From positions 60,319 through 124,318 of IMG/VR virus record IMGVR_UViG_3300025162_000024: a stretch of 64,000 nt of DNA; one strand, written 5' to 3'. Origin of the DNA: a virus. Every line of letters begins with the position of its first letter. Position 1 is the first letter of the stretch. The position numbers were made by a program, and so were the translations under genes. The notes under the pieces were generated by a model, which did not search any database, was not told the DNA's origin, and was given only the letters and a program-made list of their open reading frames with translations. This document shows, in pieces, positions 25,921 through 60,086 of the stretch.

Positions 25921-26322
25921 TCACACCCAATTTAAATCAATACACAACTTCAGCAACTTGATCGAACGGCAGAGAATGGTTCCATCCGGAAGACTGTCCA
26001 TTTTAGTTCTTTGAAAGCCGCCCTCAATTCGCTGCCAAGCGTGCTTGCTTCTGGAGAGTACCGCCTCACACCGATACACCCGCCACCCGTAGTCTCCGAA
26101 CAACTTTCGTGCGAAGTAACGAGCCTGCCACTCGTAGTCAAATGCACAGAGCGGCCCGCAGTCAGCAGCAGGCTTTACCGTTCGTCCGATCTTATATTTC
26201 ACCGGCTTCAACACTCGAAGATTAGATCGAACCATCCATGACTTGTTGCCGGCGACCGCCGACAGCAGGCTAAACCGGACCACCTTGTACACCTGAATCG
26301 TCTTCTGTCTTCTCTTGACCAT
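25921..26322 (-). CDS. hypothetical protein (133 aa)
   Basis: AAGGAG precedes the ATG. QVYKVVRFSLLSAV, KYKIGRTVKP and YEWQARYFARKLFGDYGWRV give a compact alpha/beta protein similar in layout to small phage proteins that open YKV... and carry a Y..G.......G fragment. Basic overall. The start lies 53 bp inside the methyltransferase gene's end. The function is unknown. Confidence 0.6.
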   Translation of the reverse strand: MVKRRQKTIQVYKVVRFSLLSAVAGNKSWMVRSNLRVLKPVKYKIGRTVKPAADCGPLCAFDYEWQARYFARKLFGDYGWRVYRCEAVLSRSKHAWQRIEGGFQRTKMDSLPDGTILCRSIKLLKLCIDLNWV

Positions 26323-27256
26323 TGCTCACTCCTTGTTCATCCACAGGCGGATCCACCTGTCCATCGATCTTCACCTCTCCCTTGCCCATCCAACTGCACC
26401 AGACCCGTTCAGCCCTACGCGGTAGCTTCGTATGCCCCTGACTACTCCGATTAGGAACGTCCAGGGCCAGCCAACCCCAGGGGAGGGCTTCTTCATACAG
26501 CTGGCTGGGAGCCCCCATGATCATCACCAAGTGGCCCTCTGCGGCCCTCGCTTGGGCCAGCCCCAACATCTCCCGATGACGATCGTCGGACATCTCTCGC
26601 TGGCCAAAGATCCTCGTACTGGTCCTACACGACTTCACATACGGAGGATCCAGCAGGTAGAGGAACGGGCCTGGGAACATCGTGAGCCTGATGCTCATCA
26701 CTCTGCTGAAGTCCTGGCAGGTCACATTGGCCCCTTTGAGGACAGCGGCATACTCATCCAGATCTCGTAGAAACGTGTTCCACGCATGGAGACTCTCGGG
26801 CTCTCCACCCCGCAATCGCTTAGCCTCACAGAATCCTCCCATCAGCCCGCCACGGCTAAACCGGCGGACGACTGTTGAGACGATCGCCGTGTGCAACACA
26901 TCTGCGGTCTCCCCCGCATCTCTCATTCGCCGATATTCCGTGCGATATGTCAGAAAGGTGGGTTTGTCGTAGGTCAGAGGGAGGAGGGCCGCTTTGTACT
27001 TGGCGTATAGCAGGGGCTCTGCCAGGCACTGAAAGATCGAGGCCAGGAACGGATCCACATCGTTCACCACGCGACGAACGCCGGGAGGAGCGTTAAACAC
27101 GATACTCCCCCCGCCACAGAACGGATCGACCAGCGTCGAATAGGGGTGGCCCCTGGCCAGGTCCAGGATCCTCCGGCAGGTGTAGAACCGACCCCCATGG
27201 GTCTTGACCACCGGCCGATATTTTGCTCGCGTAAAGGTCAATATCTTCTTCGGCAT
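26270..27256 (-). CDS. Dam-type DNA adenine-N6 methyltransferase (328 aa)
   Basis: Transfers a methyl group from S-adenosylmethionine to adenine N6 in DNA (D12 class). LVDPFCGGGSIVFN near residue 44 is the AdoMet-binding motif, VVNDVDP follows it, and FLYLLDPPYVKSC near 200 contains the catalytic DPPY. The N-terminal THGGRFYTCRRIL matches the KWAGGK-like region in position. In a phage it usually protects DNA from restriction. The last 40 residues are a charged tail overlapping the next gene. GGAGG lies ten bases upstream. Confidence 0.88.
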   Translation of the reverse strand: MPKKILTFTRAKYRPVVKTHGGRFYTCRRILDLARGHPYSTLVDPFCGGGSIVFNAPPGVRRVVNDVDPFLASIFQCLAEPLLYAKYKAALLPLTYDKPTFLTYRTEYRRMRDAGETADVLHTAIVSTVVRRFSRGGLMGGFCEAKRLRGGEPESLHAWNTFLRDLDEYAAVLKGANVTCQDFSRVMSIRLTMFPGPFLYLLDPPYVKSCRTSTRIFGQREMSDDRHREMLGLAQARAAEGHLVMIMGAPSQLYEEALPWGWLALDVPNRSSQGHTKLPRRAERVWCSWMGKGEVKIDGQVDPPVDEQGVSNGQEKTEDDSGVQGGPV

Positions 27257-27262
27257 AGCGAT

Positions 27263-27718
27263 CTACCCTCCTTTCTCAGAGTCGGTTTCCCATCCGGGGA
27301 TGACCGCCCGCATCTTCGGCCCGTTCTCCCTGAACCACTTCGAGTCAATCACCCGCAGTCGGACCAGTGGGTGATATTTTGCCATCCGCTTGAGCTTGGT
27401 CTTGCTCTTAGGGTCGAGCCAACCTTTTACTTCGTGATAGATTATTGCTCCATCTCGCTCTGTGACCCGGAAGTCTGGAAGGTAGGACCGGACCCCTCTG
27501 CGGATCTTCTCGAACCAGAAGGTCTCCGGTTCGTGAGCCCAGCCTACGATCTGGCCCTGGTCGACCAGGAACTGGAGGTAGCAAGCATAGTTGTACTCCC
27601 AGCGGCTGCGAAAGAAGATCTTCTTCCCGGCAATCTCCCGCCAACCCGCTTTACTCGTGTGCGTCCCGCCCTTGGTTTGTCTGAAGTTCATAGCGGCCCA
27701 TAATTGTACTGGGGTGAT
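27263..27718 (-). CDS. TnsA-like / DUF1064-like nuclease (about 151 aa)
   Basis: REIAGKKIFFRSRWEYNYAC, RSYLPDFRV and IIYHEVKGWLDPKSKTKLKR match phage endonucleases of the TnsA/DUF1064 type: FRS.WE.NYAR holds a Glu, YLPDF the catalytic Asp and E.KG the catalytic Glu-Lys pair. A strong AAGGAG is followed five bases later by ATC in frame (ITPVQLWAAMNFRQTKGG). The first ordinary ATG, at 27691, has no ribosome site. The start is therefore uncertain, with ATC or ATG both possible. It sits next to the adenine methyltransferase, which could be its protective partner. Confidence 0.7.
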   Translation of the reverse strand: MTPVQLWAAMNFRQTKGGTHTSKAGWREIAGKKIFFRSRWEYNYACYLQFLVDQGQIVGWAHEPETFWFEKIRRGVRSYLPDFRVTERDGAIIYHEVKGWLDPKSKTKLKRMAKYHPLVRLRVIDSKWFRENGPKMRAVIPGWETDSEKGG

Positions 27719-27766
27719 CTGGTCTCCTTTCTCCAGCCTAGGAAAACTGGGATATACGCCAAAACA

Positions 27767-27799
27767 AGAGCGGCGCGACACAGTATGTCGCGCCGCTCT
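27767..27799 (-). terminator. rho-independent terminator
   Basis: AGAGCGGCGCGACA pairs perfectly with its 14-base complement around a five-base loop, and the leftward transcript continues UUGUUUUGG. It lies just after the stop of the six-repeat protein (27813). Confidence 0.85.
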
Positions 27800-27812
27800 A
27801 CACGTCAGCCGG

Positions 27813-29114
27813 TTACTTCTTCAAGCTCGCTTCGAGCTTCCAGAGGTCAAGAAGCTTATGAGCGTCCTCGGCCGAGATCAGCTTGCAGCACCGCTGGCAG
27901 TTCCTGGTCAGGTAGGACTCCTCGACAGCGTTACTTGTGCCACTCAGGCACCACTTCGCATAGAACATATTGCCAGGATACTTCCGCAGCTCTGTCGACC
28001 CGTGATAGTACCAGCGCTCCTCTGGCTTCTTCCAGCTCTCGATAAGCCTACGAGCCTCTTCGGCCGTCACCCGCTTGCAGCAGGTGAGAGCGGTTACCGC
28101 TTTCTCCTCTGCGAACGCGTCGAACCCGCCCGTGCAGTTCTTGGAATAGAACTTCTTGGACGGGAACAGCCAAAGGCAGTTGTCTGTGGAGCACAGATAC
28201 CAGCGTTCCTCGGGCTCCGCCTTCTTCGGCTGCCAGCTCTCGAGGAGCTTATGTGCCTCGTCAACCGAGATTCGATCGTTGGGATATAGCGAGTCCTCGG
28301 TCTCGATGGCGTAGACCGGCTCTCCCTTGGGGATACAGCAGCTGTAGAATATGCCAGCCGGGTACACCCGTAGACATCCGCAGGACTTGTACCAGCGTTC
28401 GGTGGGCTCCGCTTTCTTCACCTTCTCAGCCTGTGCTCTAGCCCACCCGGCGATCATCTCGCGGGCCTTGGCCGGAGATACACGCTGGTTCTTCCACGTG
28501 GTGATAAGCGACCGCTCATCCGAACTGTTAGAATAGCCCTCGGGGGTAGCTGCATCGTATGTCTTCTGCTCTGGGAACGACCGCAGACTGAGCTTTCCCG
28601 ACCACTCTGAGGTGTCCAGAAGCCACCGCTCTGGCTGGGACGCCCACCAGCCTTCGATCTTCTCAAGAGCCTCTTTCTCGGAGATGCTCTCGTAGTTCAG
28701 AGTGATCAGACCTTCCTCAGTGGACGCGGCGTATAACCCGGCTGGCGTGCCCTTCGTGTGACAGATCTTTGAAGGGTAGGTCCAGAGAGCCCCGTTCCCA
28801 GTGTACCACCGGGAAACCCCCTGGAGGGTCCATGCGGCGATGATCCTGGTGGCCTGTTCGGACGTAACCTCTTTATGGCTTGATTGCACCTGTTGCTCGG
28901 TGTTAGTCTCTGGATGTGCGCTGGGAGCGGTCCGCGTATACTTCATGGCCTTCGGATAAACCCAGAGGATCCCGTCGCTTGTGTCCAGATACCAACGGGG
29001 CTCTTCTCGGGCCTCTTTGGCCTTTTTACAGCCATCGATGATCTTCTGGGCCTCGGCCGACGAGTCCTGATACCGATGAACGTTATCCACGTATTTGTAA
29101 GCTTCCTGAACCAT
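27813..29114 (-). CDS. RWY/YPA-repeat protein, six repeats (433 aa)
   Basis: The largest tandem array in the window: six units fill residues 36-433 with almost nothing else. Typical starts are PRWYLDTSDGILWVYPKAMK, SRWYTGNGALWTYPSKICH and ERWYKSCGCLRVYPAGIFYS. Each ends in an EEA/EDAH...LL..W helix (AHKLLESWQ, ARRLIESWK, AHKLLDLWK). The last three are rich in Cys (CCIPKG, CCKRV, CQRCCK), which may bind metal. The first 35 residues are helical. There is no signal peptide. The function is unknown. Confidence 0.85.
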   Translation of the reverse strand: MVQEAYKYVDNVHRYQDSSAEAQKIIDGCKKAKEAREEPRWYLDTSDGILWVYPKAMKYTRTAPSAHPETNTEQQVQSSHKEVTSEQATRIIAAWTLQGVSRWYTGNGALWTYPSKICHTKGTPAGLYAASTEEGLITLNYESISEKEALEKIEGWWASQPERWLLDTSEWSGKLSLRSFPEQKTYDAATPEGYSNSSDERSLITTWKNQRVSPAKAREMIAGWARAQAEKVKKAEPTERWYKSCGCLRVYPAGIFYSCCIPKGEPVYAIETEDSLYPNDRISVDEAHKLLESWQPKKAEPEERWYLCSTDNCLWLFPSKKFYSKNCTGGFDAFAEEKAVTALTCCKRVTAEEARRLIESWKKPEERWYYHGSTELRKYPGNMFYAKWCLSGTSNAVEESYLTRNCQRCCKLISAEDAHKLLDLWKLEASLKK

Positions 29115-29115
29115 G

Positions 29116-29643
29116 CTAAGCTCCTTTCACACGAACAATCCAATTGCCGGCCGACACGACTTCTGGAACACCCAGAACCTCTTGTACGGCTTTCATCACT
29201 CCGGGCCAGCCCTCTACGTAATCGTGGCCCCCGATATACCCACCTGCCTTCACCTTGGGCAGCCAAAGCCCCGAATCCTGCTTGACCGCCTCGTAGGTGT
29301 GTGTCGCATCGATGTAAACAAAATCCTGGCTTCCGTCCAGGATCTTATGAGATGCCTCGAGGCTCGACATCTTCATCTTGAACACATTCTCCAACGGCTT
29401 CGTCCGCCGGTCGAAGATTGCCTCAATCTCGGCCATGGGGCAGCAGGAGGACGCCGGGTCCCCCGCATCATACCCAAGCTCCCAGCTGTCCACGGCACAC
29501 ACCGAGAGCATGTACTTGGCGAAAATACAGGTACTCCAGCCAGCATACGAGCCGACCTCGACCATCCGCCCACCCCGGACCAGATCGAGAAGTGGTTTTA
29601 AGCCATCTTCTCTCCCCGAGTCATCCATCCACGCAGTATCCAT
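29116..29643 (-). CDS. class I SAM-dependent methyltransferase (175 aa)
   Basis: MVEVGSYAGWSTCIFAKYM is the AdoMet-binding loop and FVYIDATHTYEAVKQD followed by KAGGYIGGHDY is the downstream acidic pattern of the Methyltransf_24 family, often found beside sugar or natural-product pathways. It lies between two repeat-protein genes and is coupled to the six-repeat gene (1-bp spacing), which raises the possibility that a repeat protein is its substrate or partner. The acceptor is unknown. AAAGGAC ribosome site. Confidence 0.78.
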   Translation of the reverse strand: MDTAWMDDSGREDGLKPLLDLVRGGRMVEVGSYAGWSTCIFAKYMLSVCAVDSWELGYDAGDPASSCCPMAEIEAIFDRRTKPLENVFKMKMSSLEASHKILDGSQDFVYIDATHTYEAVKQDSGLWLPKVKAGGYIGGHDYVEGWPGVMKAVQEVLGVPEVVSAGNWIVRVKGA

Positions 29644-29675
29644 TCACTGTCCTTTCAAATTGTTTCGTGATTATA

Positions 29676-30107
29676 TCAATCTCCTTTTACTGAGTCCTCG
29701 TAGATCTCCGCCATCGGATGTGCCTCTCTCCAGGCGGCGACCGCCCTGGCCAGTGTCGGATGCCTGGCCGAGAACTGCCCGTCTCTCTTCTTTGGGTGGA
29801 ACATGAGCTTCAGGTGTCGCATACACGGGTTTACCTCGACGCGGATCGCCATATCATGGGCTAGAAAAACCAACCTGGTCAACATGTCAAAGTCGAACGT
29901 GGATAGGCATCCATCGTCCCAGAGCAGCTCTTGCCAGATGGGATTGGCCCAATCGACTTTAGCCAGGTGCTTCTCCTGAATGTGATGCAGGCCTACCCAT
30001 CGGTCCAGAAGGTCGGCCACCCTGAGCCCTGATTCGCTAGGGGATCGGCCGACCTTTAGGCACCGCTTGACATGAGAAAGTACTCTGGTCATTCGAGGCT
30101 CGAGCAT
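29676..30107 (-). CDS. conserved phage hypothetical protein (143 aa)
   Basis: GRSPSESGLRVADLLDRWVG, LHHI, TFDFDMLTRLVFLAHDMAIR and FSARHPTLARAVAAWR form a helical domain seen in other phage genomes, with conserved LTRLVFLAHD and RHPTL. No activity is known. The start overlaps the stop of the five-repeat protein, with GAGGT upstream. Confidence 0.6.
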   Translation of the reverse strand: MLEPRMTRVLSHVKRCLKVGRSPSESGLRVADLLDRWVGLHHIQEKHLAKVDWANPIWQELLWDDGCLSTFDFDMLTRLVFLAHDMAIRVEVNPCMRHLKLMFHPKKRDGQFSARHPTLARAVAAWREAHPMAEIYEDSVKGD

Positions 30108-31489
30108 CAGCGAGACCTCAGGTTGTGCTCAAACCGCCAGTTCTCCAGAAGCTTGAGGGCCTCGTCCTGGGTCACTTTTCGATAAGAGCCACACTGAGTT
30201 GCAGTCTCGTCCATCCCGGTCGGCGACCCATCTGGCTGCGAGTAGGCATATCGCATGCCGGCCGGATACTTGAACAGACTGCCCAGCGAGTGCAGATACC
30301 AGCGGGGCTCCTCGGGCTGTACTGCAGACCGGACGAAGATCACCTGGTTATTGCCACAGTGGAACGTTTTGGCAACAGGACTAACCCAGGGACCCTGGCA
30401 GGTGCTGAGGAACGTGCATCCCGCACACTTCCACCGAGCGTACTGAGGGCCTGAGGTGGGCTCGGGCCGTGTCTCGTACTGAACACCGTCGATGATCCCG
30501 GTCCATTTGGGCTTGGCCTCAGCCTCTCTCTTGGCCTTTTCCTCGTCCCACTTGGCAATCATCTCCCGAGCCTTCTCAGTGGTCACCCGGTGGGCTGTGG
30601 ACTCGGCTACCCCCTTCACCCAGTTAGATTCCGGGACCGTGATCGTATCACCCTCAGGCTTGAGCGAACTGTAGAAGATGGCCGCCGGATACGCCACGAG
30701 ACTATAGGACGTAGCATACCACCGCACATCCTGCTTCATCCAGAGCCCTTCCCTGAGCTGGTCTGCCTGCTTAGAATCGATCCGGACGATGCCTCCCTGC
30801 AGGATGTACGACTCTTCGGATGCTGAGGCCTTGGCCCCCTCAGGATTGCCAGTATAGACCCGGGAGGCCGGAAACTGCCCAAACCAGGCGATCCGCTCGC
30901 TCTTGTACCAGCGTTCGACAGTCGGCTGGCTCTTGGCCTCGGTCCACGCCCTGATCAGCATCTGAGCCGTTTTGGCCGGGATCAACTTGGTCGTAGATAG
31001 GAGCTTTACTCTCTCCTCAGACTCTAAGGATACATCGGCCTCGGGGAACATCGCTGTGTACACCTTATGCGCTGGATACTCTCTGAGCAGCTCGCCGTCG
31101 TCCGTGTAGTACCAGCGGGACGTCTCCTTCCGCCAGCCATCCAGGATCCGGATGACCGTGTCATATGAGATCTCTTCGTCAGTCCCGCTCACGAATGATT
31201 CGATGGCCGTAGCCGGATACCCCTTAGGATCGCTCCGGGTATAGCACGTAGCCTGGGGATATACCCTGAGCAGCTCGCCGTCCGGTGATCGGTACCAGCG
31301 GTAACCCTCAGGCTTGGCCGGGGCCAGGACCTCTCGAGCCACCTGGTACATGAGACTGACCTCAGCAGCGGCCAGCTTCTGGTATCCCTCGAACTCTGTG
31401 AGATCCCCGGACTCCACCCTCGTCCCGAGATTGGCATAGGTGTTGGTCAAAACCTGAACCTTCATCTGATCCACTGATCCATTAGACAT
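30107..31489 (-). CDS. RWY/YPA-repeat protein with inserted Cys module (460 aa)
   Basis: Five repeats between residues 58 and 460: for example YRWYRSPDGELLRVYPQATC and SRWYYTDDGELLREYPAHKV. Between repeats four and five lies a module (WTGIIDGVQYETRP, then WKCAGCTFLSTCQG, then CGNNQVIFVR) shared with the proteins at 232-1245 and 52567-52968. The first 55 residues are helical (TNTYANLGTRVESGDLTEF). AAAGGAG precedes the ATG. Intact and without signal peptide. The function is unknown. Confidence 0.85.
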   Translation of the reverse strand: MSNGSVDQMKVQVLTNTYANLGTRVESGDLTEFEGYQKLAAAEVSLMYQVAREVLAPAKPEGYRWYRSPDGELLRVYPQATCYTRSDPKGYPATAIESFVSGTDEEISYDTVIRILDGWRKETSRWYYTDDGELLREYPAHKVYTAMFPEADVSLESEERVKLLSTTKLIPAKTAQMLIRAWTEAKSQPTVERWYKSERIAWFGQFPASRVYTGNPEGAKASASEESYILQGGIVRIDSKQADQLREGLWMKQDVRWYATSYSLVAYPAAIFYSSLKPEGDTITVPESNWVKGVAESTAHRVTTEKAREMIAKWDEEKAKREAEAKPKWTGIIDGVQYETRPEPTSGPQYARWKCAGCTFLSTCQGPWVSPVAKTFHCGNNQVIFVRSAVQPEEPRWYLHSLGSLFKYPAGMRYAYSQPDGSPTGMDETATQCGSYRKVTQDEALKLLENWRFEHNLRSR

Positions 31490-31545: not shown

Positions 31546-31875
31546 CTAACTGCAGTAGGCAGGCCTCGTGGCCTCTTCTCCCTGCCCAACCCGCTCAGCG
31601 ACACACTCAGGGCACCTCTGATACTCTCCGTGCTCCGGTGTAAACCGTTTCCGGCATATGGAGCATCCACGGGCACCGCGGACAACGTCAATCGCTGACC
31701 TCAAGGCAGCCAAGAACTCGGGGTGAACCAGGGTGTCATACCTGTCTAACTTGAAGCCACCATTATACTTAGAGATCAAACAGTAGGCTTCTCCAGAGGT
31801 GACCTCGACTACCCCATTGTCGTATACAGTTACCTGGGCTATCCCGATAACCCGCGGAAGACCTTTCAAGTCCAT
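31546..31875 (-). CDS. small protein with C-terminal zinc finger (109 aa)
   Basis: GGAGGAG precedes the ATG at 31875. A beta-rich N-terminal domain (IAQVTVYDNGVVEVTSGEAY, NGGFKLDRYDTLVHPEF) is followed by CSICRKRFTPEHGEYQRC and PECVAER, a four-cysteine zinc site. It is the first gene leftward of the large inverted repeat. The function is unknown. Confidence 0.6.
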   Translation of the reverse strand: MDLKGLPRVIGIAQVTVYDNGVVEVTSGEAYCLISKYNGGFKLDRYDTLVHPEFLAALRSAIDVVRGARGCSICRKRFTPEHGEYQRCPECVAERVGQGEEATRPAYCS

Positions 31876-31928
31876 CAAACTCCTCCAATCAGTTAAATGA
31901 AGTCCATAGACAGGATCAAGACCCTGAC

Positions 31929-32204
31929 TAATGATGGCGTTTACGCCTTTCTATCTTCGATAGAAAGAGTAATACGAAGAAAGAGAAGAAGAGGAGGAAG
32001 GGAAAGAAGACAGAGAAATAAAGAAGTAAATCCATATTGTAGCAACATCTCGTTAAGATATTGGAAAAGCGGAAATGACCAACTTGCAAGTCGGTCACCA
32101 GGCACGGACTTGGTCTCTTCTCTTCTCTTTCTTTTCTTCCTCTTCTTCTCTTTCTTCGTATTACTCTTTCTATCGAAGATAGAAAGGCGTAAACGCCATC
32201 ATTA
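31929..32204. repeat. 276-bp element with perfect 67-bp inverted arms
   Basis: Bases 31929-31995 and 32138-32204 are exact reverse complements; similarity then decays into matching purine/pyrimidine-rich runs. The 142-bp spacer is unrelated. Each arm holds two nested hairpins: GGCG-TTTA-CGCC and CTTTCTATC-TTC-GATAGAAAG. Both outer ends are TA, the target duplication expected of a mariner/IS630-type MITE, but TA is self-complementary so this is weak. No real gene fits inside. It lies in a 350-bp gap between leftward genes. It could be a MITE, a replication or packaging site, or a structured RNA. Confidence 0.85.
32076..32097. repeat. 22-bp near-palindrome in the element's spacer
   Basis: TGACC-A-ACTTGCAAGT-C-GGTCA is symmetric except for one pair. 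It lies near the middle of the spacer between the 67-bp arms and could be a dimeric protein-binding site or the tip of a cruciform. Confidence 0.5.
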
Positions 32205-32226
32205 TTGGGCAGTTGCGCTGCTCTAC

Positions 32227-33108
32227 CTACTCAGGTTGACCTTCAATGGTCTCTGGGGATAGAGATGGACTTGGGAGAGCCTTGGACTTGGGAATGCTCT
32301 TTATCCCGAGGATTGGATCAAATCTGCGGTCTCCTTTTACGCCTATGCCACGTATGGCTTGGGCTATTCCAAACCGGGTAGCGAGCTTGGCTGGATCGAG
32401 CTTCTCGTCCAGGAACAGGTTGTTGACGTATGGCTCGTACTTGCTATTGAGTCCTACCAGAGGCTGGTCGTGGGTGATGAACAGGTACAGAGCGTGGCGT
32501 GTCTCTCCGAGCTTGACGTATACGGAGTACCCTTCTGCCTCTCGTCCCAGGTTCCTCCTGAGCCATTGGCCCATGTTGTTACGGCCCTTGGCTAGGTCAG
32601 CGACGGTCTCGAACTCTAAGCCTATGGTTGACATAAGCTTACGCTCGAAACCCGCTGATCCCCAGGTGCGCCATGCCCTGCTAAGCTCAAAGACAGAACA
32701 GAACAGGCACTCTCGGTACTTGCACCTATGGAGCTTTACGGCCTCGGATCGTCCGCCGTTCTTTGTACGCTTCCTATGGGCTGCCCTCGCTATCTGCCGA
32801 TAATTAGGGCAGAAGAGCAGGCCTTTGAAGTGAGGGTCCATGGGCGTCTTGTTCAACTCCAGGTTACGCTTTGCAGCCTCTGCTCTCCCCCGGAGATTGT
32901 CCATGTACGCATGAACAGCTCTCAGTTTGATCTTCCAATGACTATCTGGTTCCGGGTCGGTCGGAGGCTGTTGTCCGGCCAGCTCCTTGTACTGGGCCTC
33001 ATACGTAACGTTCCATCTGGCTCTCTTCCAAACTAAGCGACGTTTGTCCTTCTCACGCTTGACTTCTTTGCCCAGTTGGCTGAGGACCGCCCTCTTCTCT
33101 TTGCTCAT
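32227..33108 (-). CDS. unknown zinc-containing protein beside the inverted repeat (293 aa)
   Basis: AAAGGAAG precedes the ATG at 33108. Very basic N-terminal half (KEVKREKDKRRLVWKRARWN); a LHRCKYRECLFC cluster near residue 130 with helix SRAWRTWG; then GYSVYVKLGETRHALYLFIT. The order of a C...C..C cluster followed by a strand with His is loosely like rolling-circle Rep proteins, but the HUH pair and a catalytic Tyr motif are not evident. Its 3' end lies 22 bp from the 276-bp element. The function is unknown. Confidence 0.6.
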   Translation of the reverse strand: MSKEKRAVLSQLGKEVKREKDKRRLVWKRARWNVTYEAQYKELAGQQPPTDPEPDSHWKIKLRAVHAYMDNLRGRAEAAKRNLELNKTPMDPHFKGLLFCPNYRQIARAAHRKRTKNGGRSEAVKLHRCKYRECLFCSVFELSRAWRTWGSAGFERKLMSTIGLEFETVADLAKGRNNMGQWLRRNLGREAEGYSVYVKLGETRHALYLFITHDQPLVGLNSKYEPYVNNLFLDEKLDPAKLATRFGIAQAIRGIGVKGDRRFDPILGIKSIPKSKALPSPSLSPETIEGQPE

Positions 33109-33183: not shown

Positions 33184-33519
33184 TCATCGACCCAGCTGCA
33201 GACGGGGGCTGGCGGCTAGGACTGGCCTGCCACAGACGATCGAGGTGATCCTGGGGGCTCGACGCCCCTCAAGCCTCCGCCTCTCTCTGAGTTCGTCCTG
33301 TAGCCTTTGCTGAAGGGCCAATCCCTCCTCAATCCCCTGCGCATAGGACTTCTCCCAGCTCCAATCTGCTATACTGCTAGTGGCCTTGGCCGTCGGTGTC
33401 AGCTGTGTCTCTTTCTGCGTGAGCAGGTCACGGACCTGTCCGCAGATAGTAGAGAACAGCTTGACCCCCTGGCCGACGCCGTAGATCACTGGGTCCAGAG
33501 AGGACTCCGGGTAGCTCAT
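33184..33519 (-). CDS. hypothetical protein divergent from terminase (111 aa)
   Basis: The ATG at 33519 has GGAG five bases upstream. The product is helical (GVGQGVKLFSTICGQVRDLL, GIEEGLALQQRLQDELRERR) with a basic C-terminus. Position next to the terminase and size fit a terminase small subunit or packaging accessory, but no helix-turn-helix is clear. The start codon overlaps the proposed terminase start on the opposite strand. Confidence 0.55.
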   Translation of the reverse strand: MSYPESSLDPVIYGVGQGVKLFSTICGQVRDLLTQKETQLTPTAKATSSIADWSWEKSYAQGIEEGLALQQRLQDELRERRRLEGRRAPRITSIVCGRPVLAASPRLQLGR

Positions 33520-35434
33520 GCAGACTCCAATAGTGCCGCCAGCCTCGGGTAGGAACTTAGTACCCGACCTGCTCCGTGTGTTGACGGCGGCCAGCACAGA
33601 GCTCGGCCAGGCACAGGGAAACGCTTATGCGACGTCCGTGGCCGTCGGTAATCTGTATCGATCCATTGGATCTTTGCGTCTCCCGAATATAGCCCCTGTA
33701 CTCCCCTTGCTCATGTCAATCAAGGGCAAGCCAATGTCCCTCACCTCGCGGTTCCCGTTTGAGGTGCTGTTCAAGATGGTGGGGGTGCCCAGGAGACTGA
33801 CGCTGGTCACAGGACGTCAGGTCTCGAAAACGACAAGCATCTTCTCGTCTGAGATAGTGACCAGGAGCCTGCCGAACCCTTATTTCAACTCAGCATTCGT
33901 CCAACCGCAGTTCGACCAGATCCGCAGGTTCTCTACCACTGTAGCCCGCCCGATGCTCCTTGATTCTCCTATACGATCAATGATCGTCGGGGACTCTGTG
34001 GTAGCCGCTGGCAACGTGCTGCAAAGGACACTGAAGAATGGGTCGAACATATTCTTTACGTTTGGCGGTGTGGATACCGAGCGCAATCGTGGTATGCCCC
34101 TGGACAGCCTGATCATGGACGAGGCCCAGGATTTCAGTGTGGACGCTGCCGAGATCCTTGAGGCGTGTCTGGACGCTTCGGACTGGAAACTGATCAGAAA
34201 CAGTGGAACTCCCAAGACCGAGTCCACCTTCCTCCACAACCGGTGGATGGACAGCTCCCAGGCCCAGTGGACGATCCCCTGCTCCTGCGGGTATACGAAC
34301 ACCTGCTGCCGGGCCCTGGACATGGATCAGATGATCCAGCCAAAGGGCCTCTCTTGCCGGAAGTGCGGGGCTATCGTCAACCCTAGGCTGGGGCATTGGC
34401 AGCATATGGTGACCGGCGGAAACCGCCTGACGTTCCATCATGGGTATCACATCCCTCAGACTATCATGCCCATGCATTGCGAGAGGCCCTATGAATGGCG
34501 GATGATCCTCGCCAAGAAATCAGGAACCTCTCAGGTCACGTACGTCAACGAATGCCTTGGAGAAGCTGTAGGGGTCAGCCAGGGCCTGATCACCGAGCAG
34601 CAGCTCCAGGCGGCCGCGGTCCTCCCCTGGAACAACCGCCTGGAAGAGGCGGTCCCGCTACGTAACAAGTACTCGTTCCGCGTGCTGGCCGTGGACTGGG
34701 GCGGCGGGGGTGCCGGCCAGGTCCGGTACCGCAACGGGCGTATCACGGTCCAGAACGGTACGTGCTCATTTACCCATGTGGCTATCCTCGGGTTCCTCCC
34801 CTACAGCCTGATCCCGCACGTCCTGTACGCTGAGAGATTCCCGATCGAGCTGGACGAAGTGGACGAAGTGGGCCGCGTCCTTCGCCTGTACGCCTCGTTC
34901 AACTGTGACCTGCTCTCCCATGACTTCGGGGGGTCCGGAGGCGTACGAGATACGATCATCCTCCGCAATGGGTTCCCCGCCAACCGGTTGTTCCCCTGCC
35001 TGTACGTAGCTTCCAGGAACAAGATCCTCGTGTACAAGCACGAGTCGGACAACGTCGATGGCCGGATGTATTACGGAGTGGACAAAGCCCGATTGCTGCG
35101 GCTGATGTGCATGGCGATCCGGACCCAGCCGACGGTCAACGGCGGACATTTCCCCCGCTGGGAGAGCTCCAGGACCTCGGTAAGCGACTACCTGGCCCTG
35201 CTCCCAAACCGCCACTCCTCGGAGTCCGGTGCCGAAGTAACCACGATCATCCGTGATCCGACGAAGCCCGATGACTTCGCGAATGCCCACGCATACGGGT
35301 GCGCCGCCTACTGGTTCACCCGCCAGCAGTACCCCGATTTTGCCCCTGAACTGGTCTTCCCCCAAGGATCGGCCATGCAAGCGGTGCTCACCCCGGACTA
35401 CGGGGCGGGACTCGCCGGATGGGATCCAGGATAG
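33518..35434 (+). CDS. terminase large subunit, GpA-like (638 aa)
   Basis: The ATP-driven motor and nuclease that packages DNA into capsids. LTLVTGRQVSKTTSIF is the Walker A loop (deviant, with QVSKTT), DSLIMDEAQDF is Walker B with the catalytic Glu, and IRNSGTPKTESTFLHNRW is the coupling segment. CSCGYTNTCC with CRKCGAIV is the zinc finger typical of the GpA/GpA-like class. VLAVDWGGGG and LLSHDFGGSGGVRD carry the RuvC-like nuclease acidic residues. The first 45 residues are poorly conserved, no good ribosome site precedes 33518, and the true start could be further in. One of only three plus-strand genes called here. Confidence 0.88.
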   Translation: MQTPIVPPASGRNLVPDLLRVLTAASTELGQAQGNAYATSVAVGNLYRSIGSLRLPNIAPVLPLLMSIKGKPMSLTSRFPFEVLFKMVGVPRRLTLVTGRQVSKTTSIFSSEIVTRSLPNPYFNSAFVQPQFDQIRRFSTTVARPMLLDSPIRSMIVGDSVVAAGNVLQRTLKNGSNIFFTFGGVDTERNRGMPLDSLIMDEAQDFSVDAAEILEACLDASDWKLIRNSGTPKTESTFLHNRWMDSSQAQWTIPCSCGYTNTCCRALDMDQMIQPKGLSCRKCGAIVNPRLGHWQHMVTGGNRLTFHHGYHIPQTIMPMHCERPYEWRMILAKKSGTSQVTYVNECLGEAVGVSQGLITEQQLQAAAVLPWNNRLEEAVPLRNKYSFRVLAVDWGGGGAGQVRYRNGRITVQNGTCSFTHVAILGFLPYSLIPHVLYAERFPIELDEVDEVGRVLRLYASFNCDLLSHDFGGSGGVRDTIILRNGFPANRLFPCLYVASRNKILVYKHESDNVDGRMYYGVDKARLLRLMCMAIRTQPTVNGGHFPRWESSRTSVSDYLALLPNRHSSESGAEVTTIIRDPTKPDDFANAHAYGCAAYWFTRQQYPDFAPELVFPQGSAMQAVLTPDYGAGLAGWDPG

Positions 35435-36779: not shown

Positions 36780-37775
36780 TCAGTTGATTACAGCCTTCAG
36801 CCCGAGCAGCAAGCTGTCTGCCTGCTCCCGGCTCAGCCCGGCCAACCCCCCTACGAGGTCTTTGTCCAGGGCCATGATGCACTCAGGGTCGAGGATGGCC
36901 GCGGCCTTCCCCAGATGCTCGGCAACCTGCTCCAGATCGAGCTTCGCGCCGTTATTTAGGGTCACTTCGACCTTAGCCCGTTTCGGGACCATCCCAAGCT
37001 CTTCGGGCAGGGCCAGGCCCATCGTGTAATGCTGGTACAGGCCAGTTTCCATATCCAGGTCTTCGACCATCTGGAACATGGCCTGAGCCGCCTGCTTGTT
37101 CCACGAGTCGTCCGAGAGCCCGTTGAACTCATGGGCGACCACCGCGTTCCGGCTCAGGTAGCAGGGGTATCGCTCAGCGATCAGCTGGTTGGGGACAAAT
37201 TCAAGGTCATCGGAGAGCGAGGCACGCTTAGCCCAGTCTTCGACCTGATCGCTTAGGGTCAGACCAAGCTCTTTGGCCTTGAGGAGCAAGGCAGACGCAG
37301 CCTTGGTCCGGTCCGCAAACGGCAGGCGACAGCGGGCATCGTACAGGTCTGAGGCACTCTTGGCCGTGTTCTGCTCGTCGGTGGCCGGGAACATCTTCAG
37401 CTTGCGGCCGCCACTCTCCGTAGTCAGCAAGAACGCGGAGTCGGGGATCACCCCCTGATACCGATCGACGTCGTCAGCGACCTGGGACATAACGCTTCCA
37501 ACTTCTTTATCGATCCCCCAGTAGGCAGCGAACTTCAGGAGGGACCCAGCCACATCCAGCCCCTCCCGGCTATCGTATACGGCGTTCGGAAAGTACTCGA
37601 CAGCCGCCAAGTAGCAGGCAGCCTTGGTATGGCACGGGAACCGTCGGCGACCCGGGTCGGCAAACGACTCGTCGGGCAGCTCTGCAAGCTCCTTGGCCGT
37701 CGAAACAGACGCCTCTTTGATAAACTCGGGGGGTCCGAATCGGTCAACACGGCTGAAAAGGGAGATCGGGTCCAT
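36780..37775 (-). CDS. unknown protein, ESFADPGRRRFPCHTKAA family (331 aa)
   Basis: A single long globular protein. Near residue 37 it has PDESFADPGRRRFPCHTKAA followed by CYLAAVEYF, a recognisable phage-encoded segment (FADP..R..P.....A..A..YF) often seen in proteins near virion or replication genes, without known activity. The C-terminal third is helical (KLDLEQVAEHLGKAAAILDP). There is no ribosome site; the ATG is seven bases from a TAGAAT that could be a -10 box, so the transcript may be leaderless. Divergent from the plus-strand gene at 37796. Confidence 0.65.
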   Translation of the reverse strand: MDPISLFSRVDRFGPPEFIKEASVSTAKELAELPDESFADPGRRRFPCHTKAACYLAAVEYFPNAVYDSREGLDVAGSLLKFAAYWGIDKEVGSVMSQVADDVDRYQGVIPDSAFLLTTESGGRKLKMFPATDEQNTAKSASDLYDARCRLPFADRTKAASALLLKAKELGLTLSDQVEDWAKRASLSDDLEFVPNQLIAERYPCYLSRNAVVAHEFNGLSDDSWNKQAAQAMFQMVEDLDMETGLYQHYTMGLALPEELGMVPKRAKVEVTLNNGAKLDLEQVAEHLGKAAAILDPECIMALDKDLVGGLAGLSREQADSLLLGLKAVIN

Positions 37776-37795: not shown

Positions 37796-40312
37796 ATGGC
37801 TAGCAGTCCGCTCATCTCGAAGTTCGACGCTGGGTTCTCCCTGGTCAGTTCCCAGCAAGCCCTCCGGATCCAGCCGAAGGAGGGCGAACCCGGCCTTTAC
37901 CTCTGTCCTATGTGCAAGAAGCCCGAGCTCCGGGTGTATCCGGTGATGGGTCCATGGTGGCACTGTCACCACTGTCAGAAGGGTGGATGGACTCTAGACA
38001 TGTTCTGTGCCATGCACAAGCTTCCCCTGGATCGGATGACCATCCCAAAGTTCTACGCGTCCACCGGCGGGATGGTACCGGCCACCACCGTAGCCGAAGG
38101 CTTGTACAGAGAGCTGGCCGCTGCCAGACAGATCAGAAATCAGCTTAGGGAAGCCTGGGGCAAATGCCATCGGCTGCGGCAGACTAACCCATCGAGGCTC
38201 CTGGAAGTACAGGAATCCATTGAAATATACGCCCCGGTCGACCCTGGGAGCGGCCCAGGCGCACTCGACGATCTGATGGGGGCCTGGGATCCCTCCACTC
38301 ACGTACATGGACTGCCCGATGTCCCCGGCTGGTTCTCGGGCGGGATGGTCTTCCCCCTGGAACTGGCTCCTGGACTGATCTCTGGATTCCTCGTCTGCTG
38401 CAAACGCAAGGGTTACCTAAGCTGGAAACTGGCGTCAATGACCAAGACGGACGTGGGAGGCATAGGCCTTGGACAACTCCCGGCCATGGCCAAAGATGGG
38501 ATCCTCCTGCTCAATGACCCTATGAGCCTCGTATGCCTAGGCTGGCATTGGGATAAAGACGGTCACGGACCGCTCCCCGCGGTGGCCGCCCCTGTCGTAG
38601 GCCAATACCCAGACCAGGCCGAGGGCTGCTCTGAGCTGATCATTAGCTCGCTGGGCCAGTACCGGACGTGCTCTGCCCTGCCCCCGGATCAAACCTTCTA
38701 CCTGTGTGCAGACCTGCTCCCGACGGCCGTCGTCTGCTCAGAGCTCTCTCAAGGTGAGATCCACGACACCTGTCAGAATATGGGCACAGTCCACATGCTC
38801 AGAGAGTGGCTTAGATCGGCGCGACCCTGGGCATACGTAGCAAGACGCCGGTTGATGAAAGGTTCGCTCTCCGAGGCTGCCCGGTGGATGTACGATGTGA
38901 ACGTCCCTCAAACGTCCAAGATGCTCACTGCCCTCATCCAGGGGGCGACCCCCCAAGAGAGGCTGCGAATTACTCACCTGTTTAGTTCCTCGGACAAGGC
39001 AAGGCCCTTCGTGTACGAGGGAAACCCGTTCATGGAAAAGCCGGGTATGGGCATATTTGAGATCTCCGGTTCCTCCGAGATCCAGGTGTCGAACGTGAGT
39101 TTGGCCCTGGTCCAGGGGGAGGCCGATGGAGACCAGATCAGATGGTCTGGGAAACTGGTTGGACCCGGGTTCCAGATACCGTTCTCGATCCTGGAGCGAG
39201 AACTGCGGAAGAATCCGATGGCCGTCCTCCAATGGCTGATGACCACCGCGGGCTCCTCCGAACGTTTGGAATTGCATAGTAAGTGGCGGACGAGGTTCTT
39301 AGACCTGTGCCTGGCCGCCTACCCGGTGGCCCACGTGGTCCCCGATACCCCCCTGGGCTGGGACGGTCATGTCCTCAGGTTGCCCAGGATGACCATAAGC
39401 CAAGAGAAACAAGAAGACCTTAGCCCGGAGCTCCAAAGGGCGAGCGGCCCATACCGTGATCTGAGAAGCTCTGTGAGCGAGATACCCCCCAATATCCGAG
39501 AGGCATGGGCCGCCCACCCTGCGTCCATCCACTTGCTGATCTGCGGGTTGTACCCGCTATACACAGCTATACACGGACAAAGGGCGGGGACCGTGGTCTG
39601 CGTGGGCCAAGAGGCGGGCGAAGTTGATCTACAGCTTCAGCAGCTTGCCGAGTGGCTGAACCTGCCGGGGGCCCGCCCCGGCGACGGACGGCTAGGCCGG
39701 GACCTTGCCGATCGCGTACGAGGATACAAACACGCTGCCTGGCACGTTCTGAGGCTCGCAGAGCCCTGGGACGGTGCAGGGCTACAAGATCTCTTGGAGG
39801 GCGGGCTTGGCTCTGTCCTCTCCCCCGCAACCCCCCTGCAATCACTGTCAGCCGTAGCCCACGGATGCCCCGTACTCCGCCTGAACGGGGAGATCCAGGC
39901 CCTGGACTCGCTGAACACGTATCTACCCGCGATGGCCCAGGACCTGCTCTCGTTCGAGCCTGGATTGGCCCTGCACCAGCTTATGCTCCGGATGTGCAAC
40001 TCATTCTCGATCAGGCTCCCACGGGGGCTGCCCCCGGCACCCACCCCGATCGACAATCTACTGACGGCATTGGCCGGTCTCGGGGAGATGGGCCAGGAGA
40101 AGGCGGTGGCCACCGTCCTCAGCCGCGAACCGGGGAAGGATCAGATCAATCTAGCAGTGGACAAAATAGCCTGGCTGGACAAGACACACTTCAGGTGCCC
40201 GTCCGTCTCCAGCATAGCCCAGTGCGGATACCCCGTGGAAGGCTCCAGCCTGGTCATTCCCCTTCCGGCCTGGCAGGAGGCAGTGGCCAGGGCGAAGTCG
40301 GTCTATCCCTGA
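37796..40312 (+). CDS. large protein with CHC2-like zinc finger, possible primase/ATPase relic (838 aa)
   Basis: LCPMCKKPELRVY, then WWHCHHCQKGGWTLDMFC near residues 38-65 is a four-ligand zinc finger like that of DnaG-type primases. A central beta-rich part (LISGFLVCCKRKGYLSWKLA, GILLLNDPMSLVCLGW) could be a TOPRIM-like or decayed fold. Around residue 595, TAIHGQRAGTVVCVGQEAGE occupies the place of an ATPase P-loop but lacks the GKS/GKT residues. It is the longest plus-strand gene and stands apart from the main primase gene at 51366. An inactive primase-helicase-like protein is one possibility; I do not recognise a family. Confidence 0.7.
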   Translation: MASSPLISKFDAGFSLVSSQQALRIQPKEGEPGLYLCPMCKKPELRVYPVMGPWWHCHHCQKGGWTLDMFCAMHKLPLDRMTIPKFYASTGGMVPATTVAEGLYRELAAARQIRNQLREAWGKCHRLRQTNPSRLLEVQESIEIYAPVDPGSGPGALDDLMGAWDPSTHVHGLPDVPGWFSGGMVFPLELAPGLISGFLVCCKRKGYLSWKLASMTKTDVGGIGLGQLPAMAKDGILLLNDPMSLVCLGWHWDKDGHGPLPAVAAPVVGQYPDQAEGCSELIISSLGQYRTCSALPPDQTFYLCADLLPTAVVCSELSQGEIHDTCQNMGTVHMLREWLRSARPWAYVARRRLMKGSLSEAARWMYDVNVPQTSKMLTALIQGATPQERLRITHLFSSSDKARPFVYEGNPFMEKPGMGIFEISGSSEIQVSNVSLALVQGEADGDQIRWSGKLVGPGFQIPFSILERELRKNPMAVLQWLMTTAGSSERLELHSKWRTRFLDLCLAAYPVAHVVPDTPLGWDGHVLRLPRMTISQEKQEDLSPELQRASGPYRDLRSSVSEIPPNIREAWAAHPASIHLLICGLYPLYTAIHGQRAGTVVCVGQEAGEVDLQLQQLAEWLNLPGARPGDGRLGRDLADRVRGYKHAAWHVLRLAEPWDGAGLQDLLEGGLGSVLSPATPLQSLSAVAHGCPVLRLNGEIQALDSLNTYLPAMAQDLLSFEPGLALHQLMLRMCNSFSIRLPRGLPPAPTPIDNLLTALAGLGEMGQEKAVATVLSREPGKDQINLAVDKIAWLDKTHFRCPSVSSIAQCGYPVEGSSLVIPLPAWQEAVARAKSVYP

Positions 40313-56802: not shown

Positions 56803-59001
56803 TTAACCGGCAACCGCCTGGATCTGACCCATGTCGATACACTGGTCAAATGCAGACGAGAACCGCTCGTCGTGGGTGATCATGAGCATTTGCAGCCCCT
56901 GGGTCTTGGCATACCCGCTGACCGCTGCCAGCATATCCCGGACCTTAACGACGTGGGCTGCGTTCAGCCCGTAGGTCGGTTCGTCCAGGCACATGAACCG
57001 GATGTTTGAAGCGCACTGCCTGTGCACCGTGCACAGTAGGCAGATGGCGGCACAGCACAGCTGCCCGCCCGACAACTCCTCAATCGCCTGCTCGCCCCAC
57101 CCAAATTTGGCGGTCATCGACAGGTCGGGGTTCACCCCGATCGTGAACGGTACATCGACCATCGACAGAAGCTCGTTCCAGCTCCGGTTGAGCCTGGAGA
57201 GCGAGTGGCGTATACGGGCCGTGGGATAAGCCGATCGGTGGAGGACCCCGTACGTCCGGTTCAGGATATCCCGGTAGTGGACGACCCCGGCCGAGGCCGC
57301 TTCGGCCTCTTTGGCCTTAGCCAGTCTCTGGCCCATGTCAGTCACCTGCTTCTGCCACTCTCCGAGCTTAGCCTGGAGGCCAGCGCGTTTCGCGACAGTC
57401 GCAGAGATCTGAGCGAGCTCTTCCTTCTTCTTATCCCAGCCTACGTACTTGGCAGAGGCCAGCGAGGCCTGGACCTCGGCCAGAACCTCCAGAGCCTTGT
57501 CCACAGCCGTATATTCCGCTTCGGCCCGAGCCTGGTCGGCACCGGTCGTGGCCACGGCCTGCTGAGCTCTGGCCGCAGCCTGCTGTAGACTCTTCTCTCT
57601 GGCCAGCAGGTCTTCGCAGGATTTGCGGTCCTCTGCGGACATCTGCTGAACGTCTGCCGTAGCCTGGCTGGCCGCGGCTTCCGCGGCCGCCATCTGCTGA
57701 GATAACGACTGGGCCTGGGCCATACTCGTCTCCCACCCCCGACGCTTCTGCCTCCCGGCCAAGACCGTAGCCCGGTACTCTGCAAGCATCTTTCGGCCTT
57801 CGGCAACCTCCTTACGCAAGGTGGCCGCCTGGTCCCGGTTCTCTTTAACCTTAGTCTCCAGGTTAGTAAGCTGCCCGTCTTGATCGACTATGGCCCGGGT
57901 CCCGCACGTGGGACACACGCCTTTAGCGAAGCTCTGGGCGAACCGCTCCAGGCTGAGCATTGATTGCTCGGCCGGGATGATCACCTCAGTCTCAAGCTTC
58001 TGCCAGGCGGCGTCCTGATCCTCGGGCTCCGGGGGTTCCATCGTCTTCAGCTTATCGACTCGGGTCCGGGCCGCGGCCACCCGGCTAGTATGGCTCTCGA
58101 GCTCGGCGTGAAGCTTGGCGGCTCTTCCGGCACTCTCCAATAGTGCCCGGGCCTCTTGGGCCATCGGGGCGATCTCCTCTACCTGCTTGCGCAGATTGAG
58201 AGAAGCGAGTACCGCGGATTCCGATCGCTCCGCACTATTCGCCCGCTCCAGGTTAGCCCTGACCTCTGCCTCGGTCATCGCCCACAGCCCAGTCTTGGCA
58301 TCGGCCAGCCTGAGGGTCATGTTCTCAGCCTCGCGGACCAGAGCCTCATCCTCCTTAAGCTTCTGACCGTCCACGGGCGGCAATCCCTCTAGTTCCTTAG
58401 TAGCCTGCTCAATCTGAGCCGTAAGCTGCTGCAGCTGCTGTGGCAGAAGTTCTATGCCCATGATCACCGAGGGGGGTGGAGTCAGCTGGAGGCTCGTACT
58501 GATCAGGGTCCGAAGGGTCTCGCAGTTCTCTAGCCCGAACAGCCGGGTCAGAGCAGTCTCTCGCTCGGAGGGCCGTGCAGACAAGAGACGGGCGGTTTCC
58601 CCCTGAGGGATGAACACAGCGGTATCCAGTTGCTTGCTGGACGCTCCCAGGATATCGGCCAATACCTCTGCGACGGCCGCTTCGGACCTGGCTGTTTTAT
58701 CCCCGAACCTAAGGCTTCGGCTGGACCCACCTGACCGGCTCAGGCTACGGGTGAGGGTCCCGGGCATCCCCAGATGGGAGAAAGTCAAGGTGGCTGCCCC
58801 TTTGTCCTCCTGTTTATAAATGCGGCGGACCTGGGTTCCGTATCCCTTGAAGTCACCGGTCAACAACCACTGGATGATTTTTATCACATGGCTCTTACCA
58901 CACCCTATGGGTCCAAGGATCCCGGTCAAGCCCGGTCCAAACTTCAGGGATGCGTGGCGGATAGGGCCTAGATGCTCAATATCAAGCTGTAACAGATCCA
59001 C
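56803..59001 (-). CDS. sbcC: SbcC/Rad50/gp46-like SMC ATPase (732 aa)
   Basis: ATPase subunit of the SbcCD nuclease complex, which processes DNA ends and hairpins. GILGPIGCGKSHVIKIIQW near residue 28 is Walker A. Long coiled coils flank GVCPTCGTRA near 361, the CxxC zinc hook. EELSGGQLCCAAICLLCTVH near 642 is the ABC signature, FMCLDEPTYGLNAAHVVKV Walker B, and LQMLMITHDE the switch His. The length suits phage gp46. GTG start after GGAGG, overlapping SbcD by 20 bp. Confidence 0.92.
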   Translation of the reverse strand: MDLLQLDIEHLGPIRHASLKFGPGLTGILGPIGCGKSHVIKIIQWLLTGDFKGYGTQVRRIYKQEDKGAATLTFSHLGMPGTLTRSLSRSGGSSRSLRFGDKTARSEAAVAEVLADILGASSKQLDTAVFIPQGETARLLSARPSERETALTRLFGLENCETLRTLISTSLQLTPPPSVIMGIELLPQQLQQLTAQIEQATKELEGLPPVDGQKLKEDEALVREAENMTLRLADAKTGLWAMTEAEVRANLERANSAERSESAVLASLNLRKQVEEIAPMAQEARALLESAGRAAKLHAELESHTSRVAAARTRVDKLKTMEPPEPEDQDAAWQKLETEVIIPAEQSMLSLERFAQSFAKGVCPTCGTRAIVDQDGQLTNLETKVKENRDQAATLRKEVAEGRKMLAEYRATVLAGRQKRRGWETSMAQAQSLSQQMAAAEAAASQATADVQQMSAEDRKSCEDLLAREKSLQQAAARAQQAVATTGADQARAEAEYTAVDKALEVLAEVQASLASAKYVGWDKKKEELAQISATVAKRAGLQAKLGEWQKQVTDMGQRLAKAKEAEAASAGVVHYRDILNRTYGVLHRSAYPTARIRHSLSRLNRSWNELLSMVDVPFTIGVNPDLSMTAKFGWGEQAIEELSGGQLCCAAICLLCTVHRQCASNIRFMCLDEPTYGLNAAHVVKVRDMLAAVSGYAKTQGLQMLMITHDERFSSAFDQCIDMGQIQAVAG

Positions 59002-60085
59002 TGACTACCTCCTTCGGGGCTACGCATTTGTCCCGAAAATCCGAGAGGATCTTCCGGGGGTCTGCGGACTGGAGCAGGGTGCTGGCGAACGCGACGGTCT
59101 CCGAGTCCCCCTCCAGCTCCTGCAATATCTGAAGATCGGTCCGGACCTCGTCAGATTCGGCGACGGTCACTTCGATCTTCTCCTTGGCCGATGGGATCAG
59201 CATAAGACTGGCCACAGGCTCGACAGCCGCCCTGACCTTCCCCTCATCCCCGGCCGCGGCCTCCGCCAAGCGGATGGCAGCCAGCGGCTTAAGCTCAGGA
59301 TCATCGGCCGCCGTCGGTTTCAGATCCGCTACTAACTTAGCCAGGTCCGACTGGAGCTGGGAGGCCCCCAGGATATCCCGGTACACGATCCGACGGTTCT
59401 TGACCGGTATCCGGCAATAGCTGAGCCCTTCGTTCAGGACCAAGAATGACCTGGGGGACAGCTCATCCAACCCCAGGGGGTAGAGCGAACCAGTATAGAT
59501 CAGGGTCTTGTCCCCAACCTTATGCTCGCTCGGCATATGCGAATCGCCGAACACTGCGAGTTTGATCCACGCTGGGAGCCACTCAGGATCGAGATTCCAC
59601 CGGCCGGGGATGTCAATAATCCACCGGCCCATCTGATGACCGATGAGCAGCTTGGCGTCCGGAGGGCACTGGGCCAGCGTCTTCTGCAGGGCCTCAGTAT
59701 CGGCCGTGAACGGAACCAGGTAGGTCGGTACCCCCTCCAGCGGAAGCAGGCTGGGGACCACCGCATTTCGGATCCCGCATACATTCAGCCAGTCGGTGCC
59801 CTGATCGTGCCCAGGATTACCCGTGATCCCCAAGCAGAACACTTCCATCGCGTGCAGTTCTTGTACCGCTTTTTGCAGGGTGCGGACCACCTCATCCATC
59901 GGATACGGATCGTCGAAAGTATCACCGGCGAATACGACTGTCCCTATCCGCGGCTCGCCCTGCCGATCGCGAACCACCTCGACCAGTTGGCGGATAGTCG
60001 ATTCCAGATCTCCGCGGATATCCGGGCGACCCGCCCAGATCTGCTTCTTACAGTGTAGGTCACCTACAACCAGAATTCTACCCAT
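58982..60085 (-). CDS. sbcD: SbcD/Mre11/gp47-like nuclease (367 aa)
   Basis: Metallophosphatase-fold exo/endonuclease partner of SbcC. ILVVGDLHCKK (motif I), VVFAGDTFDDP (II), ITGNPGHDQG (III, in place of the usual GNHD), AKLLIGHQMG (IV) and AVFGDSHMP (V) are all present. The Pro-Gly pair within motif III is unusual. The C-terminal 100 residues are helical, as in the SbcC-binding cap. AAGGAT ribosome site. Confidence 0.88.
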   Translation of the reverse strand: MGRILVVGDLHCKKQIWAGRPDIRGDLESTIRQLVEVVRDRQGEPRIGTVVFAGDTFDDPYPMDEVVRTLQKAVQELHAMEVFCLGITGNPGHDQGTDWLNVCGIRNAVVPSLLPLEGVPTYLVPFTADTEALQKTLAQCPPDAKLLIGHQMGRWIIDIPGRWNLDPEWLPAWIKLAVFGDSHMPSEHKVGDKTLIYTGSLYPLGLDELSPRSFLVLNEGLSYCRIPVKNRRIVYRDILGASQLQSDLAKLVADLKPTAADDPELKPLAAIRLAEAAAGDEGKVRAAVEPVASLMLIPSAKEKIEVTVAESDEVRTDLQILQELEGDSETVAFASTLLQSADPRKILSDFRDKCVAPKEVVSGSVTA

Positions 60086-60086
60086 G

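Follow-up and report, generated by a model that had tools for sequence, protein, structure and literature searches.

A 276-bp segment between two leftward genes of this large phage ends in long inverted repeats that match without a mismatch, which raises the question of what kind of element it is and what it might do. The window analysed here, 64,000 nucleotides long, covers bases 60319–124318 of a 124,318-base IMG/VR record, and coordinates are those of the window unless stated otherwise. The two arms are exact reverse complements (67 of 67 positions identical), and the outer end of each is TA, on both sides of the element. The parts of the locus are as follows.

31546–31875, minus strand: downstream neighbour in the order of transcription; the gene has a good ribosome-binding site and encodes a small CxxC-CxxC protein; its start lies about 50 bp past the element
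31929–31995, plus strand: left arm, 67 bp, begins with TA; exact reverse complement of 32138–32204
31936–31947, plus strand: nested dyad 1, GGCGTTTACGCC, with a 5-bp stem and a TT loop; mirrored at 32186–32197
31947–31967, plus strand: nested dyad 2, CTTTCTATCTTCGATAGAAAG, with a 9-bp stem and a 3-nt loop; mirrored at 32166–32186
31976–32010, plus strand: pure purine run, 35 nt
31996–32137: spacer, 142 bp
32029–32114, minus strand: predicted three-way-junction cap, made of a closing stem and hairpins 32074–32099 and 32043–32063
32076–32097: near-palindrome in the spacer, TGACCAACTTGCAAGTCGGTCA, 22 bp
32114–32157, plus strand: pure pyrimidine run, 44 nt, opposite the purine run
32138–32204, minus strand: right arm, 67 bp, ends with TA; exact reverse complement of 31929–31995
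32227–33108, minus strand: upstream neighbour in transcription order, an orphan protein; its stop codon lies 22 bp before the element

The sequence-only reading had described perfect arms with nested hairpins around a spacer containing a near-palindrome. This anatomy was confirmed, with both dyads located in the arms and the 22-bp near-palindrome found within the 142-bp spacer. From its TA end, each arm passes through the two dyads and enters the purine run on the left or the pyrimidine run on the right, and these are the two longest purine/pyrimidine runs of the whole record. The nested dyads have no further copies in the record beyond the arms. When the match is extended without gaps (31929–32014 and 32119–32204), it covers 86 nt at 93% identity, and all six mismatches are confined to the inner 19 nt. 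This inner part is nearly purine against purine, and its identity of 13/19 is about that expected for two purine tracts (p 0.09), so that the secure arm is 67 bp. The 276-bp inverted repeat is by far the largest in the record, and a chance origin is excluded; a scan of the 124 kb for inverted repeats spaced by up to 500 bp gave no other longer than 20 nt at about 80–89% (record positions 60001–60318 lay outside the scan).

The perfect identity of the arms had been taken to imply recent origin or strong selection. This is too strong, because template switching homogenises the arms of inverted repeats and can also create hairpins (PMC8604942, PMC8794818); perfect arms alone thus show neither youth nor selection. 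It had also been noted that the phage encodes its own SbcCD, which should destroy long palindromes. SbcC/Rad50-like and SbcD/Mre11-like genes are indeed present at family level, their NCBIfam matches falling below the curated cut-offs, but the paradox is a weak one. The E. coli SbcCD study used a 246-bp interrupted palindrome, compared with 67-bp arms and a 142-bp spacer here, and states that lagging-strand cleavage is detected only when the palindrome is artificial and exceeds natural ones in length (PMC3315005).

Nearly all genes of the record run leftward, the exceptions being the terminase (33518–35434) and an 838-residue gene (37796–40312). The element occupies the intergenic space of two minus-strand orphan genes, and without it the gap would be an ordinary one of about 75 bp. 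Because it lies between two leftward genes with short gaps, the element is probably inside a single leftward transcript. An AlphaFold model of the upstream neighbour, made without an alignment, has a pLDDT of 39 and was discarded as unusable. The same leftward run includes a D12-class adenine methyltransferase (26270–27256, minus strand) and a Methyltransf_24 protein (29116–29643, minus strand). An orphan 460-residue protein at 30107–31489 (minus strand) carries a repeated RWY...GEL...YP motif, and no family or relative was found for it.

The composition of the element sets it apart from the genome: its GC content is 39% versus 58%, at the 0.3rd percentile. Arms and spacer are at 37% and 41%, respectively, and the gap that holds the element has the lowest GC among gaps of at least 100 bp, the others averaging 55% (sd 5%). 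The 276 bp correspond to 92 codons, and frame 1 is free of stops from end to end on both strands, as in 0.4% of within-block shuffles in a post hoc test. Contiguous open frames, TA termini and long stem-loop transcripts occur together in RPE, ERIC and the 107-bp Correia element (PMC2229807). Codon usage in the open frame is unlike that of the phage. A plus-strand gene at 31897–32262 was rejected as a candidate, with a codon score of −0.12 per codon that is lower than for any called gene, and this frame had no protein match among phages, plasmids or families. Calling the element non-coding, as had been done earlier, agrees with the absence of a phage-like codon signal but overlooks the uninterrupted frame on each strand.

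The whole element has a fold z of about −20 as RNA or DNA (−20 to −21 for RNA). In the direction of the mRNA, the predicted structure is a rod of about 67–80 bp with the three-way junction as its cap, and cap hairpin 32074–32099 includes the 22-bp dyad. The cap (86 nt) gave a z of −3.57 on the minus strand, where 1 of 200 shuffles was as stable, versus −1.34 on the plus strand, where 18 of 200 were; the significance is about 1 in 100 once two strands are counted. All non-Watson-Crick pairs of the two cap hairpins are G-U in the leftward RNA. Four of five transitions in the inner arms yield G-U on the plus strand, opposite to the mRNA sense, so the strand argument is limited to the cap, for which the predicted signal is moderate. 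Rfam contained no family at gathering score. Its only matches were to plant miRNA-precursor models far below that score, which may be obtained from any long hairpin, and a known RNA family was rejected. A tRNA or interrupted tRNA was likewise rejected, since ARAGORN (default thresholds, with or without introns) reported none in the full or the empty-site sequence; the right flank is D-arm-like (GGTAGAGCAGCGC, minus strand).

The reading that we favour, tentatively and at a little under an even chance, is that of a palindromic, MITE-like insertion with TA ends, whose probable role is that of an RNase III-type hairpin for cutting or stabilising the leftward transcript. A fold-back element would have entered the leftward operon at a TA that separates two of its genes. 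Read-through from the upstream gene would then yield an RNA rod, paired without interruption over 67 to about 80 bp, with its three-way-junction cap, and RNase III, from the host or as a phage equivalent, would cut or bind the rod, separating the flanking messages and setting their stability. The identity of the arms may be maintained by template switching and need not indicate youth. Arrival by transposition, transcription of the element and the action of RNase III on it are steps that we infer.

Much of what characterises a MITE is present here. The element is short (276 bp), non-coding and bounded by terminal inverted repeats (the 67-bp arms); it is AT-rich and intergenic, sits in a leftward gap and is predicted to form a stable hairpin. 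MITEs also occur in multiple copies, and here one copy was found in the record and none in the collections searched, which may not include the host of the phage; for this reason the element is not filed as a MITE. That it nonetheless works like one comes close to an even call. The earlier label of a TA-flanked MITE therefore stands as to the TA ends, the AT-richness, the stop-free frames and the stable hairpin, but not as to copy number. The TA at each end is compatible with a TA duplication, yet this dinucleotide is its own complement and would occur at both ends by chance in about 1/16 of cases; no longer duplication is present. The insertion reading is also supported by the intergenic site and the strand-biased cap. 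Counting against a MITE are the single copy, the lack of an empty site for comparison, since no relatives of the flanking proteins were found, and arms far beyond the 7–24 bp of known TA-ended bacterial MITEs.

The best precedent for the proposed action of the element in RNA is the Correia (NEMIS) elements in Neisseria mRNAs. RNase III binds and cuts Correia elements in these mRNAs if their ends are symmetrical; the elements are often located at TA sites, and one has been reported from a prophage region (PMC2649163, PMC10969869). They resemble the phage element in their TA (sometimes CA) ends, intergenic position, palindromic and non-autonomous nature and transcript hairpin, and the RNase III action on symmetrical ends and the prophage-region example add to the likeness (PMC2649163, PMC2229807). 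In contrast, they are 104–157 bp long with repeats of about 24 bp and many copies, whereas the phage element has 276 bp, perfect 67-bp arms and one copy, and no sequence match between the two was found. The RUP element of pneumococcus is also small, palindromic, non-autonomous and targeted to TA, and is thought to be mobilised by IS630-Spn1 (PMC2229807). It differs in its length of 107 bp, its 9-bp repeats, its multiple copies and its proposed partner transposase, for which the phage element has no known counterpart. ERIC/RU-1 and the Rickettsia RPE share the palindromic structure, TA ends (absent from some RPE), open frames and stem-loop transcripts (PMC2229807), but have repeats of 7 and 12 bp and are multi-copy elements of bacterial chromosomes. 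MITEs such as the pandoravirus submariner also reside in virus genomes (PMC4495683, PMC6004678), although these are eukaryotic DNA viruses and the copy number has expanded. In the reports considered, viral MITEs are from such eukaryotic viruses, and the only phage case is the Correia element in a prophage region.

No second copy of the element was found in the 124-kb record, and none in 50,697 phages, in 72,556 plasmids or, by four exact-pattern scans, in IMG/VR. A single 18-mer scan of 84,980 genomes, one per species, returned 12 chance matches and no copy, and a BLAST search covering some 1,590 genomes in four phyla also gave no copy. The terminal 18-mer matches (4 viral, 12 genomic) were rejected as homologues, all being isolated and without a second arm; matches to GATAGAAAGAGTAATACG were rejected because they lacked a second arm and wider similarity. 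The proposal to seek the arms in other phages, here widened to plasmids and genomes, thus turned up isolated short matches only. As to a possible autonomous partner with a transposase, exact-pattern scans with arm 18-mers and 21-mers matched no element that has a second arm, and the record has no DDE_3 gene. Because the collection scans required exact 18- to 21-base matches and may not have covered the host, these negatives are limited. Searches by terminase, polymerase and neighbour protein found no close relatives, the terminase relatives having 22–38% identity only. In none of 80 loci from these terminase relatives does a perfect inverted repeat exceed 24 bp, and in the 42 related phage records neither a homologous element nor a relative of either flanking protein was found.

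The strongest competitor is a structured RNA native to the phage, in which rod and cap are made from the leftward transcript, are under selection and were never mobile; its role could be that of a processing site or a small RNA, or it could act as decoy or sponge on host factors that sense double-stranded RNA or structure. It predicts a leftward transcript, as does the favoured reading. The strand specificity of the cap fold (z −3.57 versus −1.34) and the G-U pairs of its hairpins point this way, as do the failure to find a second copy and the long perfect arms, which favour a function of the duplex. The phage also has multi-subunit RNA polymerase genes of its own and so may control its own transcription. 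The cap signal nevertheless amounts to only about 1 in 100 when both strands are counted, the inner-arm mismatches favour the plus strand, Rfam offers no family, and the 80 loci and 42 records, distant as they are, yielded no homologue; we consider a native RNA possible, though clearly less probable than the insertion. The earlier suggestion of a double-stranded RNA decoy fares differently in its two parts. An RNA-level role gained support from the predicted transcript hairpin and the strand-biased cap, but it is improbable that rod and cap form a dedicated long double-stranded RNA that works in trans, such as a decoy or sponge directed at a host nuclease or a structure-sensing defence. Nor is a function required if template switching reverse-copied one arm and then held the arms identical. 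Such switching is known both to create reverse-complement repeats and to homogenise arms (PMC8604942, PMC8794818), and beyond 67 bp the match is no better than that of purine tracts. Published events are, however, shorter (the largest rRNA pattern is 59 bp, and yeast spacers are short), and the low GC of both arms and spacer, the nested dyads and the structured cap would be left unexplained, so that a purely mutational origin is unlikely.

An action in cis at the DNA level, as replication origin, cruciform or protein-binding site, or packaging or partition signal, is about as improbable as the decoy. It is suggested by the three kinds of dyad in a symmetrical array, by the long purine/pyrimidine runs and by the PolA, DnaB, SbcC/D-like and Holliday-junction resolvase proteins that the phage encodes. 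An origin marked by skew was rejected, since GC skew keeps its sign at the site and lends the proposed lytic origin no support. The 1.3-kb distance to the terminase, given earlier for a packaging signal, is correct (its start lies 1,314 bp from the element), but nothing besides this distance supports such a signal; the dyads are absent from the record outside the arms, and the 80 relatives have no similar repeat near the terminase. Arms of 67 bp would suffice for homologous or site-specific inversion of the spacer, and template switching has been documented to invert the spacers of short repeats (PMC8604942). The invertible switch envisaged before is still very unlikely, as the record has no Phage_integrase-family gene (PF00589) and neither the spacer nor the region has a promoter above chance; no serine recombinase is among the families identified in the record. 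The least probable explanation, and a very remote one, is an assembly or amplification artefact. The element does come from a single metagenome contig, but both flanks run on into genes of the same strand, the arms are shorter than an ordinary short read, and a chimera would need a unique, structured spacer and TA stops on both sides.

If the element is a MITE, it would be one residing in a large phage and away from any known host chromosome, and its arms would be much longer than those of the bacterial families. If it is native, it would be a large phage RNA without an Rfam relative. Either way, the perfect arms provide a simple test case for homogenisation by template switching in a virus with an SbcCD-like pair.

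A 1448-residue protein (L019:6340–10686; record 26340–30686, minus strand) contains the RNA polymerase beta domains Rpb2_2 and Rpb2_6 followed by the beta-prime N-terminal domains Rpb1_1 and Rpb1_2. About 7 kb away, a 613-residue protein (L018:17125–18966, minus strand) contains the beta-prime C-terminal domains Rpb1_4 and Rpb1_5. From this domain order, the enzyme looks like a fusion of beta with the N-terminal part of a split beta-prime, and the phage may belong to the RNA polymerase-encoding Caudovirales (PMC7481178).

At 56803–59001, 58982–60085 and 60087–61082 on the minus strand, overlapping SbcC/Rad50-like and SbcD/Mre11-like genes adjoin an RNA ligase, whose best match in the phage collection is a ligase of an Altiarchaeum virus (35.6%). 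The minus-strand gene at 36780–37775 has its homologue on the terminase strand in the majority of the nearest relatives by terminase (e.g. L026, L027, L031 and L040), and L040 carries the homologue of the plus-strand 838-residue gene on the opposite strand. It seems likely that the terminase, 36780–37775 and 838-residue genes have undergone a local inversion.
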